Virus record (IMG/VR): IMGVR_UViG_3300036826_000015
Location: 1-40,707 of that record
Length of the DNA stretch: 40,707 bases
Direction: 5' to 3' (one strand)
Origin: a virus
The notes under the pieces were generated by a model, which was given only the letters and a program-made list of their open reading frames with translations, searched no databases and was not told where the DNA came from. The stretch's first letter is position 1. Every line of letters begins with the position of its first letter. This document shows, piece by piece, positions 7,364 to 17,766 of the stretch. The position numbers and the translations under genes were made by a program.

Positions 7364-8827
7364 TTACTTGTTTGTCATCCGATCTACAAGCGCACGATGA
7401 ATGCGCTGCCTGCGCAGCTGCCAGTCCTCAGTTTCCTTTAGCCGCTTGGCTGCGGACCGCGAGAACAACTGGTCAATGATCTTGACTGACTCATTGATCT
7501 TGGCCGCAAATTCACCCACGACCGTAGCCAGGATGGTCTTGCGGTTGCGTGCCGTGTCAACCATGTATGGATGTTCCTTGTTTATCCACGCCACGAATGC
7601 CGCATCTTGTCCGTCAAAGGACACCAGAGCGCCTTTCATCTGCTTGTCGCTCTTGAACACGAAGTTCAGCTTGGCCGCTCGCCGTGGCTCAGGCTTGCCA
7701 TCAGGGTCAAGTGGCTGATCTGGATGCGTATGCTTATGCTTGTTCGGACCGCGCTTGCCGCCTTTGCGCTCAAATTCCGGCACGTCGATGACAGCGCGGG
7801 TCACGGTCAAGTCGCCTTTCAGCAACAGGTCGCTCAACTCCAACGCTAGGTCGGCGAAAGCAATGGACAGTTTGTTTTCCTCTTCCATGTCCAAGATTGG
7901 CTGGATTTGATGGATGATCTGCTTGCGCAACGACTGATACACTACCTGGTCGGCAATCTCATCTTTCTCCGTGGTCAACGGCCAACTGCCTTTCAGCTTG
8001 ATGAAGCCGGTGACTTGGGTCGCTGGGACCGCCTCACCCTTGGCATTGAAAAAGAAGTCACGTGTTGACGTGATAACTCTGTCCGCATAGCACAGGTGAA
8101 TCTTGACCGCGTCTGAGGGTAGGTCATCACAGATGCCTACCTCACCGACCGCTTCCAACGCACCCACCTTGGCTTTGACCTTCACCGATGTTTTGAACAC
8201 CGGCATCGCTGTCTCCAACGGCTGGCCATTGAAGAATATCTCCACGCCAGCGGCCAAGGCAGGCGCAAACTTGATCGCCAAGTCACGCGTGATGTTCTCT
8301 TCACGAACAATCTTGCCCGCAACCACCTTGCCTATGATGGCTGTGCCGTGCCTCAGCTTGAGTAGGTCCTTGGGAGTGTTGTGAGAAGTCGGCTTGAACA
8401 CCTTGTCCTCAATCTCAGGGTATCGGTTGGACTCAAACACCGCATCCCAATCCACCTTGTCATGAGCCAGCTTGCCTTTGCGTAGCGTCCAGACCACGCA
8501 ATGATGGAACAGCCACAGGATGGCCTTGCTTCCACCGAAGCCAAACTTGCCGATGTCGCCTTCAACTTCATCAGCGCCCATGCCTAGCACGAACAAGGGG
8601 AACACGTCTGGCCGGTCGGGTTTGCTCGGCATCCTCATGCCCACGCCATCATCCACGATTGCCAACAGCCGGTTATGCCGGTTGTATCGAATCCAGATGC
8701 GGCCAGCGTTGCCACGACCTTTGCCGCGTGAGTTGTCAACGAGTTCAGCCAGAGCGCCGGACACTGACCAGCGTTCATTGCGGATGGCATACAACGCTCG
8801 TGGCGACGGTATCGCTTGACGCTTCAT
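7364..8827 (-). CDS. GHKL-superfamily ATPase (MORC/Hsp90/MutL-like)
   Basis: 487 residues beginning at ATG 8827 (AAAGGAG, 7-nt spacing). The N-terminal Bergerat ATP-binding fold is clear: N-box ALAELVDNS (E28, N32), G1 box IVDDGVGM (57-64), and G2 box GKFGFGGSK (93-101). It lacks a histidine-kinase dimerisation helix. The middle carries a second domain like the S5 transducer of GHKL machines, and the C-terminus is basic. Such proteins clamp or remodel DNA or proteins with ATP. The phage role is unknown. A basic 161-residue protein is encoded immediately upstream with an ATGA overlap and may be a partner. Confidence 0.8.
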   Translation of the reverse strand: MKRQAIPSPRALYAIRNERWSVSGALAELVDNSRGKGRGNAGRIWIRYNRHNRLLAIVDDGVGMRMPSKPDRPDVFPLFVLGMGADEVEGDIGKFGFGGSKAILWLFHHCVVWTLRKGKLAHDKVDWDAVFESNRYPEIEDKVFKPTSHNTPKDLLKLRHGTAIIGKVVAGKIVREENITRDLAIKFAPALAAGVEIFFNGQPLETAMPVFKTSVKVKAKVGALEAVGEVGICDDLPSDAVKIHLCYADRVITSTRDFFFNAKGEAVPATQVTGFIKLKGSWPLTTEKDEIADQVVYQSLRKQIIHQIQPILDMEEENKLSIAFADLALELSDLLLKGDLTVTRAVIDVPEFERKGGKRGPNKHKHTHPDQPLDPDGKPEPRRAAKLNFVFKSDKQMKGALVSFDGQDAAFVAWINKEHPYMVDTARNRKTILATVVGEFAAKINESVKIIDQLFSRSAAKRLKETEDWQLRRQRIHRALVDRMTNK

Positions 8828-9309
8828 TGATGCGCTCCTTTCTCGTTGATGCTCTTCCACTGCTCGCCATCCCATGCCCACCCCAGCGGTGCCACGAATG
8901 GCTTGGCTGGCGTGGCTCTGAGATATGCTCTCATCAGCTTGATGAACAGCGGCCAGTTACCTTCTTCACTTGCCTCGTGAATGAAGTCCCTGAATAATGC
9001 CTCATTGAACAAGCGCCAGACCGGAATCAGGCTTGGCACGTGGACCATCTGTAATGGACCTACACGGCCAATAACCTTGGACTTGAGCGCCTTTCCCTTG
9101 CCCTTAGATTTGTTTTGTCGCACCGGCAAAGATGCCTCAACCGGCTTGGTTGCGCCATTTCTGCCAGATTTGGGCCTGTAAGCCGGTTTTGGGCGTGCGA
9201 CGTTTGCGCCTATCGCGTTTTTATTCGCTGTCGGCTGTCTTGACCCAGGCTTTGGGAGATAGCGCCCAGTGACGCTATCCCGCAGCCGTTTAGTGGTGAT
9301 TGGCTTCAT
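8824..9309 (-). CDS. Basic protein with disordered N-terminus, 161 aa
   Basis: The first ~85 residues are rich in K, R, P and G (SVTGRYLPKPGSRQPTANK, PVRQNKSKGKGKALKSK), which suggests an unstructured nucleic-acid-binding arm. The last ~70 residues are helical (VWRLFNEALFRDFIHEA, WPLFIKLMRAYLRA). Its stop overlaps the GHKL ATPase start as TGA/ATG, so the two are probably made in concert. Family not recognised. Confidence 0.65.
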   Translation of the reverse strand: MKPITTKRLRDSVTGRYLPKPGSRQPTANKNAIGANVARPKPAYRPKSGRNGATKPVEASLPVRQNKSKGKGKALKSKVIGRVGPLQMVHVPSLIPVWRLFNEALFRDFIHEASEEGNWPLFIKLMRAYLRATPAKPFVAPLGWAWDGEQWKSINEKGAHQ

Positions 9310-9437
9310 AGCCGAATCCCCAAGGCATGTTCGATGCGCCGGATGGCTTGCGCCTTCTGGAGCACGAATGCCGGTTTGCCATGAGTGATCTTGGCCTTGC
9401 GCCTTGACCTATGGCGTTTGTTTTTGCGTGTTTTCAT
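9306..9437 (-). CDS. Very basic 43-aa peptide
   Basis: ATG 9437 follows AAAGGAACAACAAT, the phage's recurrent SD. The peptide begins MKTRKNKRHRSRRKAKI and ends IRRIEHALGIRL, overlapping the next start as ATGA. The composition suggests binding to nucleic acid. First gene of the GHKL operon, after palindrome copy 4. Confidence 0.55.
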   Translation of the reverse strand: MKTRKNKRHRSRRKAKITHGKPAFVLQKAQAIRRIEHALGIRL

Positions 9438-9465
9438 ATTGTTGTTCCTTTCATTGTTGGAGAAA

Positions 9466-9494
9466 CGCCACAGCCGAATTGAACAGCCGTGGCG
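9466..9494 (-). promoter_or_regulatory. Leader hairpin after promoter copy 4
   Basis: CGCCACGGC pairs with GCTGTGGCG (9 bp, one G-U) around an 11-nt loop. A short TTT follows, so it might act as a weak attenuator or as an mRNA-stabilising stem. It lies between promoter copy 4 and the SD of the basic peptide gene. Confidence 0.6.
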
Positions 9495-9505
9495 CTCTGT
9501 AGCCA

Positions 9506-9536
9506 CCCCTTATATTGAATTCAGTATAAGGGTCAG
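9506..9536 (-). promoter_or_regulatory. Palindrome promoter/operator, copy 4
   Basis: Minus strand CTGACC, 16 bp, TATAAG, with the dyad half-sites CTTATACTGAA and TTCAATATAAG. It separates the ParB-like gene from the basic peptide/GHKL operon and leads into a hairpin-bearing leader of about 70 nt. Confidence 0.75.
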
Positions 9537-9540
9537 CGCC

Positions 9541-10371
9541 TTACTTCTTGGCCTTGGCAGCCTTCTTTTTGGCTGGCGCTTTCTTCGCTGCCTTCGCTGC
9601 CTTGGCTGCTTCTGCTTTCTCTGCCTCAGCCTTCTCAACCGATGGCGTCTTGGCGTCAGCCGGTCGGCGGTCGTTGATGAACGCCTGGACGTGTTTGATC
9701 ACCTCACGGTGCTGCGTCTGCGGCCAGTGCTTGAGCAACCGGCTCCACGCCATCCACACCTCATCCTCAAACGTGCGGACCGTTTTGCGTGGTTTCTTCT
9801 TGCTCACGCCAGCTTTCTTGGATGCCTGTTTCAGCGTCATCTTCTTTTGGATGACATCTTCAATCAGACCAGCTTTGCGCGCTTTCTCAGCTTGCCCCAT
9901 CTTGTGGGTCGTGGTCTTGCCAGCAGCCGCCAACTGCGCGACTGACGTGCCTTTCTCGCCGTTGCCCTTGAATGAGCCTGACTTCTTGCCAGCGGCCAAT
10001 TGCCGCTCTCTGGCTGCCTTCTCATACTTGGGTCCTAGCACCTTGGACACGTAGCCAATGCGCTGATCTTCAGTCAAGTGGCGACGGAACACGTTGAGGC
10101 GAAGGATTTCAGCCTCAATCTCGCTGTCCTTACCCTGGAACACGTCATATGGAACATCCTTCTGGATGCCCAACTCGGTTGCGATCTGCCACCGGTTGCG
10201 ACCATCAATGATGGTGTCCAGCTTCTTGTTGACCAGAATCGGCACGACTATGCCGTTGGCCTTAATGTCATCACGCAATAGTTCCAACTCATCGCCGCCA
10301 AGCGTGTCGAACGTTCTTGCGAATGGATGTATCTTCATCACTGCTTTTAGTGGTTTGTCTTGTTCACTCAT
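9541..10371 (-). CDS. ParB/KorB-like DNA-binding protein with histone-like tail
   Basis: 276 residues. The N-terminal ParB/Srx-fold domain is visible: IHPFARTFDTL, then IKANGIVVPILVNK, IIDGRNRWQIATELG and NVFRRHLTEDQR. A central region with VAQLAAAGKTTTHKM and LKQASKKAGVSKKKP resembles ParB helix-turn-helix segments. The last ~45 residues are almost only A, K and E, like H1-type histone tails. ParB and KorB proteins bind palindromic sites and can act in partition or as global repressors. The 13 dispersed palindromes of this phage are possible targets. Start ATG 10371 has no strong SD. Confidence 0.75.
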   Translation of the reverse strand: MSEQDKPLKAVMKIHPFARTFDTLGGDELELLRDDIKANGIVVPILVNKKLDTIIDGRNRWQIATELGIQKDVPYDVFQGKDSEIEAEILRLNVFRRHLTEDQRIGYVSKVLGPKYEKAARERQLAAGKKSGSFKGNGEKGTSVAQLAAAGKTTTHKMGQAEKARKAGLIEDVIQKKMTLKQASKKAGVSKKKPRKTVRTFEDEVWMAWSRLLKHWPQTQHREVIKHVQAFINDRRPADAKTPSVEKAEAEKAEAAKAAKAAKKAPAKKKAAKAKK

Positions 10372-14008: not shown

Positions 14009-14533
14009 CTAGATTGCGAGCGTATCCGTGACGCGGTCGGCTATTGCGCTCACATCTTCGAACGATTCGTTGCGCATCCTCGACACGGGAAACGTGTGGG
14101 CGATACGGTCGATGAGCGTGGCGCGTGACCGGTGAAATTGCTCCGGTTGCGTATCGTGACGCGCTGTGTGTCGCCGCGACTTTTCCGGTGCGCTCGTTTC
14201 GATGAGGAAAAGCGTGAGCCGGTCGCCAGCCGCTTGAAAGAAACCAGCGCGTGTGAGCCGGTCGCCTTCGAAAAGGATGGTGGCCTTGTCAGGCACCTTG
14301 GAAAGAAACCGGATTGCGTCTGGCTGGACCGCCATTGATAGCCGGTCGGTCCCACCAAACAACTCATCATCGTGATAGATGCCCAAGACGTAAAGACCGC
14401 GCTTGGCGTATTGGCGACCGACCACCAGCCGGTATTTGAACAGCGTGTAATCATCGCCCAGGCGCTTGAGCACTTCGCGCATGACGGTTGTCTTGCCGGT
14501 TGCTGGCTCACCGATTATGCCCACGACTCTCAC
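14009..14533 (-). CDS. P-loop nucleotide/DNA kinase, candidate base-modification kinase
   Basis: 174 residues. GEPATGKTT at 8-16 is a Walker A loop, followed by an NMP-kinase-like core (TILFEGDRLTRAGFF, LTLFLIETSAPEKSRRHTAR). Small P-loop kinases of this type phosphorylate 5-hydroxymethyluracil in DNA in hypermodifying phages (HMUDK). The helical-domain protein next door supports that reading. A deoxynucleotide kinase is the main alternative. The start is GTG 14533, only 9 nt downstream of the TATAAG of promoter copy 6 and with no SD, so the mRNA should be leaderless or nearly so. Confidence 0.7.
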   Translation of the reverse strand: MRVVGIIGEPATGKTTVMREVLKRLGDDYTLFKYRLVVGRQYAKRGLYVLGIYHDDELFGGTDRLSMAVQPDAIRFLSKVPDKATILFEGDRLTRAGFFQAAGDRLTLFLIETSAPEKSRRHTARHDTQPEQFHRSRATLIDRIAHTFPVSRMRNESFEDVSAIADRVTDTLAI

Positions 14534-14540
14534 ACGCCTA

Positions 14541-14571
14541 CCCTTATATTGAATTCATTATAAGGGGTCAA
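14541..14571 (-). promoter_or_regulatory. Palindrome promoter/operator, copy 6
   Basis: Minus strand TTGACC, 17 bp, TATAAG: the closest match to sigma70 consensus spacing in the set. The dyad has one changed base (CTTATAATGAA half). TGA of TGACC is the stop codon of the upstream gene (14568-14570). The kinase GTG lies 9 nt past the -10 box. Confidence 0.8.
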
Positions 14572-15473
14572 GCCACACGATTCTCGCAGAGCAAATCCGG
14601 TCGAAACGTTTCACGCCGATAGTCCCACAGGACCGACCAATCAACGCCATCTGTAACATTTGTTTGCGCGGACCGGATTTCATCGGCCTGTCTGTCGATG
14701 TAGTATCCTGGCCAGCGTTTCCCAAGGTGATACTTCTTGTAGGCGCAGAGGGTTGTTTCAATGTTCCATACGTTGCTACCTGGTTGCTGTTCGCGCAACT
14801 CGTCCACAACATCTTGGAAGCAGGCTTGTAGGTAGCCCATGTCACGCTGCGATAGCCGCTTGCCGTTGCCGTGGGTGTTGAACTCCGGCATCCCAAGCGC
14901 CATCACCAGACCGTTGCGACAACTCTCAGCGTCACGCATCTTCATGGTGCGTGGTTCCATTGGAAAGCCGGTCACTACATGGACCGCTTCGGTGTAAAGC
15001 CATAGCCCAAAACGTCCCATTTGAAACCACTTGGATGCCTCGTCACTCACGATCTTGTAAGTGGTGAACGGGTCATGCGGCACTTCGAATTGGCGCAGGT
15101 AGCCTTCTTGTGTGAGCGGTCGGACCGCTGCGCTGTAGCTGCGAAGCATATCCACCCACTGGTTACGCGAGCGGACCCAGCGCCGGTCGGTCTGGAACAC
15201 TACCTTGTCACGATTGGCTTTCCACCAGCGGTCAGCGCGATTGAAGTCAACATTCTCCCAATCGGGAAACTCATTGTAGATGTAGAACGTGGTCGCACCG
15301 CAGTAGCAAGTGCTGTAGATGTAGGCCAGCCAATAGCGTTGTTCCGTATTTAACTCAAAACGATCGCAGATGTAGCGCAGCATGGAATAGCTAGGGTCAA
15401 CATCGCCGATTGCCCTGCTTTCAGCGTGATATTCTGGATAGGACTTGAGTGACGGATAGCTGGCCCAATTCAT
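14568..15473 (-). CDS. HMUDK-helical / aGPT-Pplase-like DNA hypermodification protein
   Basis: 301 residues, mainly helical. RYWLAYIYSTCYCGATTFYIYNEFP (46-70), FQTDRRWVRSRNQ (93-105) and YTEAVHVVTGF recall the helical domain that accompanies 5-hydroxymethyl-dU DNA kinases and the alpha-glutamyl/putrescinyl-thymine pyrophosphorylase (aGPT-Pplase) families. This is recognition from memory, not a search. Those proteins act with a P-loop kinase to activate hmU and displace the phosphate with another group. Here the kinase is a separate gene just downstream, and an amidotransferase and a TET/JBP oxygenase are just upstream. Starts in an ATGA overlap at 15473. Confidence 0.6.
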   Translation of the reverse strand: MNWASYPSLKSYPEYHAESRAIGDVDPSYSMLRYICDRFELNTEQRYWLAYIYSTCYCGATTFYIYNEFPDWENVDFNRADRWWKANRDKVVFQTDRRWVRSRNQWVDMLRSYSAAVRPLTQEGYLRQFEVPHDPFTTYKIVSDEASKWFQMGRFGLWLYTEAVHVVTGFPMEPRTMKMRDAESCRNGLVMALGMPEFNTHGNGKRLSQRDMGYLQACFQDVVDELREQQPGSNVWNIETTLCAYKKYHLGKRWPGYYIDRQADEIRSAQTNVTDGVDWSVLWDYRRETFRPDLLCENRVA

Positions 15474-16096
15474 ACCGCCAAGGCATAACCAGGTGGCACC
15501 GGCTTGGCATCCTTGAAGCCAGCACGTTCAAATATGTCTCGCGTGGATGCGAAGTAGTTGGAGCCATTATCTTGGACACGCCAGAGCGGTCGCTGTTTGT
15601 TACGCAAGGCCACCAGCTTCTTGTTGTGAAGCATGACACCGGCAAAACTGAATTCGCCGGTCGCTACCCAAGTCACCCAATCCTCGCCAGCTAGGACTTT
15701 GCGCACGAATATCTCGCCATCATTGTCCGTGATCGGCTTGAACCCAAACTCCTTGCCCCATTCCTTCTTGGTGCTCATTCGGATAACACCGTTGAACGCC
15801 ATGGCAACACCGTCGATGTAGATTGGCTGGTTGTTAGTTTCATCCTTCCAATCGCCGCTGGTGGAGTAGCGGCAGTGAGCTATCAGCTTGAGCGATATGT
15901 TCTGGCTGGCTACAACGCGCAAGTGAGTTTGAGCCATGTCCAACTCGCTGAACCGAGCACAGAACAACTTGGGTCCGTTGTAATAGGCCAAACCAAAGGC
16001 GTGAAGGCCACGAATCTTGCTCTCATTGAACAAGGTCAGTAGGCGCTCACTCGTTTGTTTGCTGCCCTTGCCTTGAAAGCCTATCACTGCGCACAT
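15470..16096 (-). CDS. Class II glutamine amidotransferase (stand-alone glutaminase domain)
   Basis: 208 residues. Cys2 follows the initiator Met, as required for the Ntn-type nucleophile after Met removal. RGLHAFG (29-35), HCRYSTSG (74-81, like GlmS HTRWATHG), NNQP (88-91) and AFNGVI (100-105) match the GATase II glutamine-binding and oxyanion positions. It would release ammonia from glutamine for a partner enzyme. No synthase domain is fused, so the acceptor enzyme is separate, and neighbours suggest a modified base as acceptor. Start 16096 follows AAAGGAG with 7-nt spacing and overlaps the upstream gene by 50 bp. Confidence 0.8.
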   Translation of the reverse strand: MCAVIGFQGKGSKQTSERLLTLFNESKIRGLHAFGLAYYNGPKLFCARFSELDMAQTHLRVVASQNISLKLIAHCRYSTSGDWKDETNNQPIYIDGVAMAFNGVIRMSTKKEWGKEFGFKPITDNDGEIFVRKVLAGEDWVTWVATGEFSFAGVMLHNKKLVALRNKQRPLWRVQDNGSNYFASTRDIFERAGFKDAKPVPPGYALAV

Positions 16097-17093
16097 CGCC
16101 TAGCTCCTTTGCTCGCCGCAACTCGTGTGTAGCATCGCCGCATTCCATCATCTTTTCCCTGTAATACAGGACAAGTGAGACTCGTTCAAACATGCCTTTG
16201 TTACCACGCATCGGACTATTGCCATGCCACTCGTGAACGTCCGCGCAGAGGACACAGCCGGTCCTCATATCCAGGGCAACACGGTAACGTGGAAACACGA
16301 AGTAACAACCGTCAAACCGGCCACGGCGCAAACAACTCATCACGCCAAAGCCTTCTTTCAAGTCGCCTACGTCCTTGTGAACGGCTGTCTGGAAGTTGCG
16401 GTTGACCGTGACAGTGGTGAAACACGTCCCATGAATGTAGAAGTCCTTGCTGGTATCGGTGATGAACTTCTTTTGTCGGCTGTAACGCTCAGGCACTAGG
16501 TCCTTGAATTCGCGGTCGATCTTTTGGATGAATGGAATGACACGAGCGAAGCGTGTTGGATGGTTCAAGTTGTAGGCAGTCAGCCGACAATACGGGTTGC
16601 GTGCGCTCCGGTCGAAGTAACCCACGATGCCGCTCTGGACCTTCTTGGCATAGTTGGTGTTGGACAACGTGCCATCATGCTTGATTGGCCGTGCTCGCGT
16701 TGCGCTGATCTGTTTCGCTCCGATGCCGTGTGCCTGTAGGACCTGTTCTGCTTCCTGCTCGGTCATCATGCCAGCTGCGTAGCCACGGTTGAAGGTTGGC
16801 GCTGCCGCATCCTTCCAAACGGGAAACGCGGCAGCGCACTCTTCTGCGCTCAACACGCATTGCCGCAACCGACAAAGCAACGAGCCATCCGGCTTGAACA
16901 CGTCCGCGTCATCCGTGAGCAACAAGTCATAGCTGTCATCGTCTAACAGGTGCGCGGCCAGCTTGTCGGTTTCTGCCTCGGTTAAGGCTGCGCGCTTGAG
17001 GTGAATCACCTTGACCGGTGTTTTGGTCTTGGGCCTGTAGTCCAGCTGAATTGCTCGTGGTGGGACGTTTACCGTCTGTTGAATCGTTGCCAT
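16047..17093 (-). CDS. TET/JBP-family 2-oxoglutarate/Fe(II) DNA-base dioxygenase
   Basis: 348 residues from ATG 17093. The double-stranded beta-helix is at 215-312: TAVHKDVGD gives the HxD iron ligands (H239, D241), YFVFPRYRVALDMRTGCVLCADVHEWHGN gives the distal His (H287 or H290), and RVSLVLYYR gives the 2-oxoglutarate Arg (R304). The order and HGN motif are typical of phage TET/JBP enzymes, which hydroxylate 5-methylcytosine or thymine in DNA. The N-terminal ~210 residues are uncharacterised. No C5-cytosine methyltransferase lies in the window, so thymine is a serious candidate substrate. The N-terminus overlaps the ParB-like gene by 158 bp. Confidence 0.8.
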   Translation of the reverse strand: MATIQQTVNVPPRAIQLDYRPKTKTPVKVIHLKRAALTEAETDKLAAHLLDDDSYDLLLTDDADVFKPDGSLLCRLRQCVLSAEECAAAFPVWKDAAAPTFNRGYAAGMMTEQEAEQVLQAHGIGAKQISATRARPIKHDGTLSNTNYAKKVQSGIVGYFDRSARNPYCRLTAYNLNHPTRFARVIPFIQKIDREFKDLVPERYSRQKKFITDTSKDFYIHGTCFTTVTVNRNFQTAVHKDVGDLKEGFGVMSCLRRGRFDGCYFVFPRYRVALDMRTGCVLCADVHEWHGNSPMRGNKGMFERVSLVLYYREKMMECGDATHELRRAKELGDVRSDRLSRQGQQTNE

Positions 17094-17766
17094 GCCCACG
17101 ATGGTAGCATGTGTCCACGGCAGCGACAACGGTGTCTGTGACGTTCTCAGTTGCGAATTGTTCTTGGAGCGTCCGCACCTGGTCCATGAACATAGGCAGC
17201 GTTTCGACCGTCAGGAATAGCTGGACCATCCTGATATGCGCTGGCAACAAGTCGATTTCATCCTTGGACAACGGCTGTATCTCATCGTCATCGTTGGCTG
17301 CGATGCCGCGCACCATTCGTTCCAACTCACCCGCGCTGAATCCGGTCAACGACAAGTCGAATGCGCCGGTGTCCAATTCCATTAACAACTCACTCAGCTG
17401 CGGAAAGTCCCAGTCACCGCCATGCTTGTTGGCTGCAATCATGGCCGCTTTCTCCGTGGCCTCATCCCACTGGACAACACGGTAGTTGTAACGCTCGCCT
17501 TCAAACAACACGTAGCCTTCGGCAACGGTGCCCTTGGCTGTTGGGACCTTGTAGCGCCTCACGATCTTGACCGGTGCTTCGCCTAGCTCCTTGACACGCT
17601 GGTGGCCGCCGACCAGGTGGCCGGTCCGCTCGTTGAGAATCAAGCCGGATAGGTCGCCAAACTTACGCAAACTGTCAGCCAGCATCTTGAGTTGTTCTGG
17701 CGTGATCTTGCGCGGGTTGAGCGGGTTGGCCGCATCAGCCAGTTGAGCTACAGATTTGATCTTCAT
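16936..17766 (-). CDS. ParB/Srx-like protein leading the hypermodification operon
   Basis: 276 residues. The first ~100 form a ParB/sulfiredoxin-like domain: LNPRKITPEQ (16-25), LRKFGDLSGLILNERTGHLVGGHQR (33-57, with the conserved GGHQR), and EGYVLFEGERYNYRVVQWDEATEKAAMIAANK. Such domains often travel with DNA methylases and other base-modifying enzymes. The last ~50 residues are low in complexity and coincide with the out-of-frame overlap with the TET/JBP gene. ATG 17766 is 6 nt downstream of the TATAAC box of promoter copy 7 with no SD, so it should be translated from a leaderless mRNA. Confidence 0.75.
   Translation of the reverse strand: MKIKSVAQLADAANPLNPRKITPEQLKMLADSLRKFGDLSGLILNERTGHLVGGHQRVKELGEAPVKIVRRYKVPTAKGTVAEGYVLFEGERYNYRVVQWDEATEKAAMIAANKHGGDWDFPQLSELLMELDTGAFDLSLTGFSAGELERMVRGIAANDDDEIQPLSKDEIDLLPAHIRMVQLFLTVETLPMFMDQVRTLQEQFATENVTDTVVAAVDTCYHRGHGNDSTDGKRPTTSNSAGLQAQDQNTGQGDSPQARSLNRGRNRQAGRAPVRR

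Follow-up and report, generated by a model that had tools for sequence, protein, structure and literature searches.

A glutaminase-linked clade of amino acid:DNA transferases in a candidate DNA hypermodification cassette of uncultured viruses

Results

Five adjacent genes on one strand

The window analysed here is the whole of the single viral record IMGVR_UViG_3300036826_000015, a stretch of 40,707 bases which encodes portal, head protease, tail and baseplate proteins. No terminase was recognised among its genes, and hence we regard it as a fragment. Five open reading frames (ORFs), overlapping or almost abutting their neighbours, run on the minus strand from position 17766 down to 14009; we propose that they form a cassette for post-replicative DNA hypermodification. 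In order of transcription they encode a ParB-like protein of 276 amino acids (aa; 16936..17766), a TET/JBP-type Fe(II)/2-oxoglutarate dioxygenase of 348 aa (16047..17093), a stand-alone class II glutamine amidotransferase (GAT) of 208 aa consisting of a glutaminase domain only (15470..16096), a 301-aa protein of the amino acid:DNA transferase family (ADDT) which belongs to a glutaminase-linked clade (14568..15473), and a P-loop kinase of 174 aa with a GTG start, a candidate for a DNA kinase acting on hydroxymethyl bases (14009..14533). A first-pass annotation of this DNA had given the same five ORFs in the same place, strand and order, which we confirmed. The ParB and TET genes share 158 nucleotides (nt), and the GAT stop and the ADDT start overlap by 4 nt. 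The ORF call places the TET start at a TTG (17129); the alignment with its relatives favours the ATG at 17093, from which the 348 aa are counted.

The ParB-like protein matches PHROG 620 "ParB-like partition protein" (1.4e-30) and nothing in the Pfam search; its gene adjoins that of TET in almost every related locus. The dioxygenase matches Tet_JBP (PF12851) above the cut-off (9e-23), and its HxD...H...R signature is intact, as had been noticed at first sight: H239, D241, H290 and R304 are invariant across 34 homologues. Foldseek (prob 1.0) puts its AlphaFold2 (AF2) model, which has a mean predicted local distance difference test score (pLDDT) of 91.5, nearest to CcTet, human TET2, NgTET1 and CMD1. 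Residue D244, three residues past the catalytic Asp, aligns with a base-contacting position of TET2.

Two variants of the ParB-TET pair were met among the relatives. At L006:4144-7244, genes for an iron-containing alcohol dehydrogenase-like protein, which may be a glycerol-1-phosphate dehydrogenase, and for a HAD hydrolase come after a near relative of the pair of the window; the same TET start may lead to another decoration there. In L002, which is among the nearest complete cassettes, a GP88-family gene (9283-10038, Pfam 1.6e-54) stands between ParB and TET.

The identification of the third gene as a stand-alone class II glutamine amidotransferase also held. The protein scores slightly above the Pfam cut-offs of both GATase_7 (1.4e-6) and GATase_6 (4.4e-6), can be aligned to the glutaminase domain of GlmS and, according to Pfam, carries no synthetase domain. 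The N-terminal Cys nucleophile (Cys2), the Gln-binding Arg (R76), the Asn-Gly oxyanion hole (N102-G103) and the Asp (D126) are all present, and they are invariant in 18 homologues.

The 301-aa protein had been called "HMUDK-helical/aGPT-Pplase-like", a name of which only the second half survives. Pfam matches it to ADDT (PF18724 "Amino acid:DNA transferase", 2e-19, 70.6 bits against a cut-off of 26.2), and one homologue from a phage bears the annotation "alpha-glutamyl/putrescinyl thymine pyrophosphorylase clade 2". HMUDK_hel (PF18723) is a separate family, which matches gp55 of phage M6; we rejected it for the 301-aa protein since Pfam matches ADDT alone. The best match of the AF2 model (pLDDT 95) is gp46 of phage PaMx11 (8z2n/8z2m, prob 1.0, template modelling score about 0.6), described in the PDB titles as 5-phosphomethyl-deoxyuridine (5-PmdU) glycinyltransferase; the next matches, far weaker, are DNA glycosylases. 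A PDB profile search from three ADDTs returned nothing relevant, and it was a wider profile together with Foldseek that gave PaMx11 gp46. G153, E239 and C243 are invariant across ADDTs. The 12 GAT-linked representatives form a monophyletic group in the ADDT tree (support 0.999); gp247 of phage ViI and the ADDT of the mycobacteriophage Lolalove (MT818419, Coopervirus) form their sister group, and those of M6 and PaMx11 are placed elsewhere. One pattern scan of bacterial and archaeal genomes revealed no bacterial, archaeal or prophage copy of the clade.

The kinase has the Walker A motif GEPATGKT. Its best Pfam match, Ploopntkinase3 (PF18751, 3.8e-5), reaches 23.8 bits, under the cut-off of 27; the Lolalove homologue scores 238 bits with the same model. 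An iterated profile of the kinase finds M6 gp54 (4e-7), PaMx11 gp49 (1e-7) and Lolalove gene 4 (7e-31), so that profile searches placed neither the 301-aa ADDT nor the 174-aa kinase in an unrelated family. In the Pfam search the window kinase has no match to the models of the 5-hydroxymethyldeoxyuridine (5-hmdU) kinases of M6 and ViI (PF18748/PF18747), which do match M6 gp54 (a 5-hmdU DNA kinase according to Pfam) and ViI orf00243. Judged by these profiles, the predicted family of the window kinase is a P-loop family related to that of PF18748. A published account of such phages has a 5hmdU DNA kinase phosphorylate the 5hmdU in DNA before it is modified further (PMC6449724). Database labels for this kinase superfamily call for caution: its members (PHROG 800, M6 gp54, PaMx11 gp49, Cr30 gp114 and MementoMori gp03) widely carry the names "terminase small subunit" or "adenylate kinase", which are probably wrong.

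The part of the window with the ERF and helicase genes also has, on the minus strand (7364-8881 and 9541-10371), genes for a GHKL-type ATPase (HATPase_c_3, 3.1e-8) and for a second protein resembling ParB.

Conservation of the cassette

We scanned viral contigs with alignments and patterns of TET, GAT and ADDT and then surveyed the loci with profiles. The order ParB-TET-GAT-(GNAT)-ADDT-kinase, where GNAT is an acetyltransferase, recurs in dozens of contigs of uncultured viruses, the proteins being about 35-77% identical. A gene order conserved in so many contigs at such distances is not due to chance. In several of them, small- and large-terminase-like genes come after the cassette.

The association of GAT with ADDT is strict. 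A GAT lies within 4 kb of all 70 distinct ADDTs of the clade of the window, and within 600 bp in each of the 64 cases having at least 1.2 kb of upstream sequence, most of the 70 having been retrieved through ADDT or TET patterns and not through GAT. None of 20 ADDTs from outside the clade has a GAT beside it, despite the fact that TET is adjacent to 17 of them and a kinase to 15. This means that GAT tracks the ADDT clade and not TET. Near the 70 ADDTs of the GAT clade we found a kinase in 64 cases and a GNAT acetyltransferase in 50; the latter, which the cassette of the window does not have, is weakly similar to the acetyltransferase gp48 of PaMx11 (5e-9).

One locus, L093, shares with the GAT cassettes the ParB, the kinase, the terminase and a TET with motifs as in the L067 type. 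Neither GAT nor GNAT is present there: the ADDT falls outside the GAT clade and is followed by a flavin adenine dinucleotide (FAD) oxidoreductase resembling PaMx11 gp47 (E 4e-16). More generally, an FAD gene stands beside a non-GAT ADDT in five TET loci and beside no ADDT of the GAT clade, and the locus survey gave not a single co-occurrence of the FAD enzyme with GAT.

At two further loci (L125:4578-10012 and L148:3647-8210), GAT, ADDT and kinase occur without a nearby TET, and a radical-SAM-like protein comes after the kinase. In L125 it matches Pfam Radical_SAM just under the cut-off (2.9e-6); its homologue in L148 has clustered cysteines and no Pfam match. These proteins are hinting at an alternative activation of the methyl group.

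Discussion

A proposed pathway

The TET, GAT, ADDT and kinase of the cassette look active, and the reactions that we infer for them, with their target base and with ammonia as the nucleophile, would be the following. The TET/JBP protein would act on a pyrimidine that is already part of the DNA, hydroxylating its 5-methyl group and, in the likeliest case, turning thymine into 5-hydroxymethyluracil; the P-loop kinase would phosphorylate the hydroxymethyl group; GAT would feed glutamine-derived ammonia to the ADDT, which would displace the phosphate and leave a 5-aminomethyl base. In most relatives, but not in the window, GNAT would then probably acylate the resulting amine, and the presence of GNAT near most ADDTs of the GAT clade fits a free-amine substrate. 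The ParB-like protein probably binds or targets DNA. Hydroxylation, phosphorylation and amination in this order had already been put forward in the first-pass annotation; the model is still the best supported and has strong comparative support, with thymine as a likelier base than 5-methylcytosine (5mC).

We have very little doubt that DNA is hypermodified here through a phosphorylated hydroxymethyl base, and we incline slightly towards an ADDT which installs ammonia rather than an amino acid. To the full scheme, with the likeliest choice made at every step, we give a probability of about 0.48, weighted by hand and not calculated as a strict product. The amination step owes much to PaMx11, whose gp46 and gp47 reportedly (in the work of Wen in 2024) turn phosphomethyl-deoxyuridine via glycinyl-thymidine into 5-aminomethyl-deoxyuridine. 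Since L093 has another ADDT and an FAD enzyme in place of GAT and the GAT-clade ADDT, the simplest reading is that ADDT and GAT would reach the aminomethyl product of the PaMx11 type in a single step with ammonia. The most specific form of the proposal, in which a glutaminase-fed ADDT directly aminates phosphorylated, TET-made 5-hydroxymethyluracil to 5-aminomethyluracil in double-stranded DNA and bypasses the route through glycine and FAD, is a tentative one, and we would not bet on it.

Several points weigh against the scheme. The window is a fragment without terminase, so that a methyltransferase may lie outside it; the closest TET structures are those of eukaryotic enzymes solved with DNA containing 5mC or 6-methyladenine; the phage TETs tested by Burke in 2021 are said to act on 5mC; and D244 is compatible with cytosine. 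The kinase is under its Pfam cut-off, the likeness of GNAT to PaMx11 gp48 possibly holds at the superfamily level only, and the exchange of GAT for the FAD enzyme has one clear locus (L093) behind it. Lastly, amino acids are what the sister ADDTs are believed to transfer, and ammonia would thus be a change of substrate.

The target base

Thymine is probably the substrate, because a C5-methyltransferase is absent from the window, from the complete genomes having both TET and ADDT, and from most of the GAT-cassette records. PF00145 was found neither in the window (a fragment, so that the gene could lie outside) nor in the complete genomes of Rhodococcus phage Tonitrus (PP978825), Lolalove and Caulobacter phage Cr30 (NC_025422), nor in any record of a set of 48; it is present in four of the 47 GAT-cassette records (L061, L114, L125 and L186). 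The ADDT products characterised so far are, to our knowledge, all derived from thymidine. The PF00303 enzyme, from which the known thymine-modifying phages obtain hydroxymethyl-deoxyuridine monophosphate (hydroxymethyl-dUMP), was found in M6, PaMx11 and ViI. We did not find it in the window (which is incomplete), in the tested GAT cassettes, in Tonitrus or in Lolalove, and Cr30 alone has it among the tested TET phages. TET thus appears, from gene content, to substitute for hydroxymethylation at the nucleotide level. A ThyX-like source of hydroxymethyl-dUMP (PF02511) was found in none of 17 records.

We consider it unlikely that the pathway is a cytosine one, in which TET would oxidise 5mC made by a C5-methyltransferase of the host or the phage, and the kinase and ADDT/GAT would make an aminated cytosine from 5-hydroxymethylcytosine (5hmC). 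Beyond the reported preference of phage TETs and the solved folds bound to 5mC-DNA, this would agree with the four records having PF00145 and with Methylophilales phage Melnitz (MZ577097), in which a C5-methyltransferase, TET, an unknown gene and a kinase of the same family are consecutive. The row of genes in Melnitz, where no ADDT lies within the region read, suggests a phosphorylated 5hmC. However, PF00145 is lacking in 43 of the 47 GAT-cassette records, in all records of the set of 48 and in the three complete genomes, although its absence from fragments is weak evidence and a methyltransferase outside PF00145 may exist; the thymidine nature of the known ADDT products argues in the same direction. 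The residue three positions past the catalytic Asp is Asp in loci both with and without a C5-methyltransferase; among those with one, it is Asp in Melnitz and Asn in L114.

Ammonia, amino acid or another pathway

It is unlikely, although to be taken seriously, that the ADDT attaches an amino acid and that GAT acts later, as an N-terminal nucleophile hydrolase on the side chain, or tunes the supply of glutamine and glutamate. ViI gp247 and PaMx11 gp46 are thought to attach amino acids, the group of ViI gp247 and Lolalove is, within the amino-acid transferases, the sister of the GAT clade, and GAT is without a synthetase domain. Against this, the residues of a glutaminase acting on free glutamine are invariant, and GAT, confined to a single ADDT clade, alternates with the FAD enzyme, as expected for an ammonia donor. 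We give hardly any credence to a role of GAT in some other pathway, for peptides or of the amidoligase type, such as its relatives in phages tf and Salgado may have: these, the closest GATs of isolated phages, adjoin amidoligases and gamma-glutamyl cyclotransferases, but such genes were not seen in the cassettes, where GAT is strictly tied to one ADDT clade.

That the kinase stands outside the pathway, as a nucleotide kinase or a packaging gene, is very improbable. It has PHROG 800 "terminase small subunit" as its sole PHROG match, terminase genes come after it in many relatives, and Mycobacterium phage Rinkes (PQ449568) has the same kinase family in a ParB-preQ0-DpdA cluster, a 7-deazaguanine system, directly ahead of the terminase. 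We rejected the label as an artefact: M6 gp54, which the kinase profile finds, carries it too and yet is a 5-hmdU DNA kinase according to Pfam. Moreover, a separate small-terminase-like gene follows the kinase in several cassettes, and the kinase accompanies 64 of the 70 ADDTs of the GAT clade.

Significance and comparison with known systems

If the proposed amination of TET-oxidised thymine is true, there is a second way to aminated thymine in DNA, and a thymine oxidation like that of JBP exists in phages and feeds hypermodification; a thymine-hydroxylating phage TET would be joined to a previously undescribed type of DNA-base amidotransferase. Whether phage TETs act on thymine becomes, with this cassette, a testable question. 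The module, widespread among uncultured viruses, is built from interchangeable parts (either GAT or the FAD enzyme, GNAT present or absent), and gene content would therefore predict the chemistry of a phage. If active, TET, kinase and ADDT/GAT would be a tool to write a reactive amine into DNA.

The first-pass annotation had taken TET with a kinase of the 5-hydroxymethyluracil type and an amidotransferase for a new combination; TET with ADDT and kinase is not one. These three have been published for Tonitrus, where ParB, a TET-like J-binding protein, ADDT (aGPT-Pplase2) and a P-loop kinase are described as a "thymidine hypermodification" set (PMC11955845). Unlike the window, Tonitrus has no GAT and has extra hypothetical genes, and its TET and ADDT are distantly related to ours (about 21-24% identity for ADDT). 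Lolalove likewise has ParB, a Tet_JBP-like "hydroxylase" (5.5e-6, under the Pfam cut-off), ADDT and Ploopntkinase3, followed by the terminase; it differs in having no GAT, a divergent TET and an ADDT outside the GAT clade. In Cr30 the TET, ADDT-like and kinase genes are dispersed across about 9 kb, genes annotated as inositol-phosphate synthase and cysteine dioxygenase stand between or beside them, and a thymidylate synthase is also present.

PaMx11, with a 5-phosphomethyl-deoxyuridine glycinyltransferase (gp46), an FAD enzyme (gp47), an acetyltransferase (gp48) and a kinase (gp49), has in common with the GAT cassettes the ADDT fold, the phosphomethyl intermediate and, for most of them, the acetyltransferase; it differs from the window by its PF00303 enzyme and by glycine and the FAD enzyme in place of GAT. 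M6 and ViI have an ADDT (gp51 and gp247) and P-loop kinases as the window does, but with the PF00303 enzyme instead of TET and without GAT in the regions read; their kinases are HMUDK_HMUD1/HMUD2 in Pfam, and M6 also has HMUDK_hel. In the phage 5mC systems reported by Burke, a phage TET initiates hypermodification as it would here, but C5-methyltransferases co-occur, and none was found in the window. Iyer is said to have proposed in 2013 that TET-made hydroxymethylpyrimidines are starting points of hypermodification. The literature searched, which did not cover this 2013 work, the most plausible place of an earlier mention, holds no report of a glutaminase-coupled ADDT. Hence, with TET, ADDT, kinase and ParB already known together, it is the glutaminase-coupled clade of ADDTs that appears to be the new part of the cassette.

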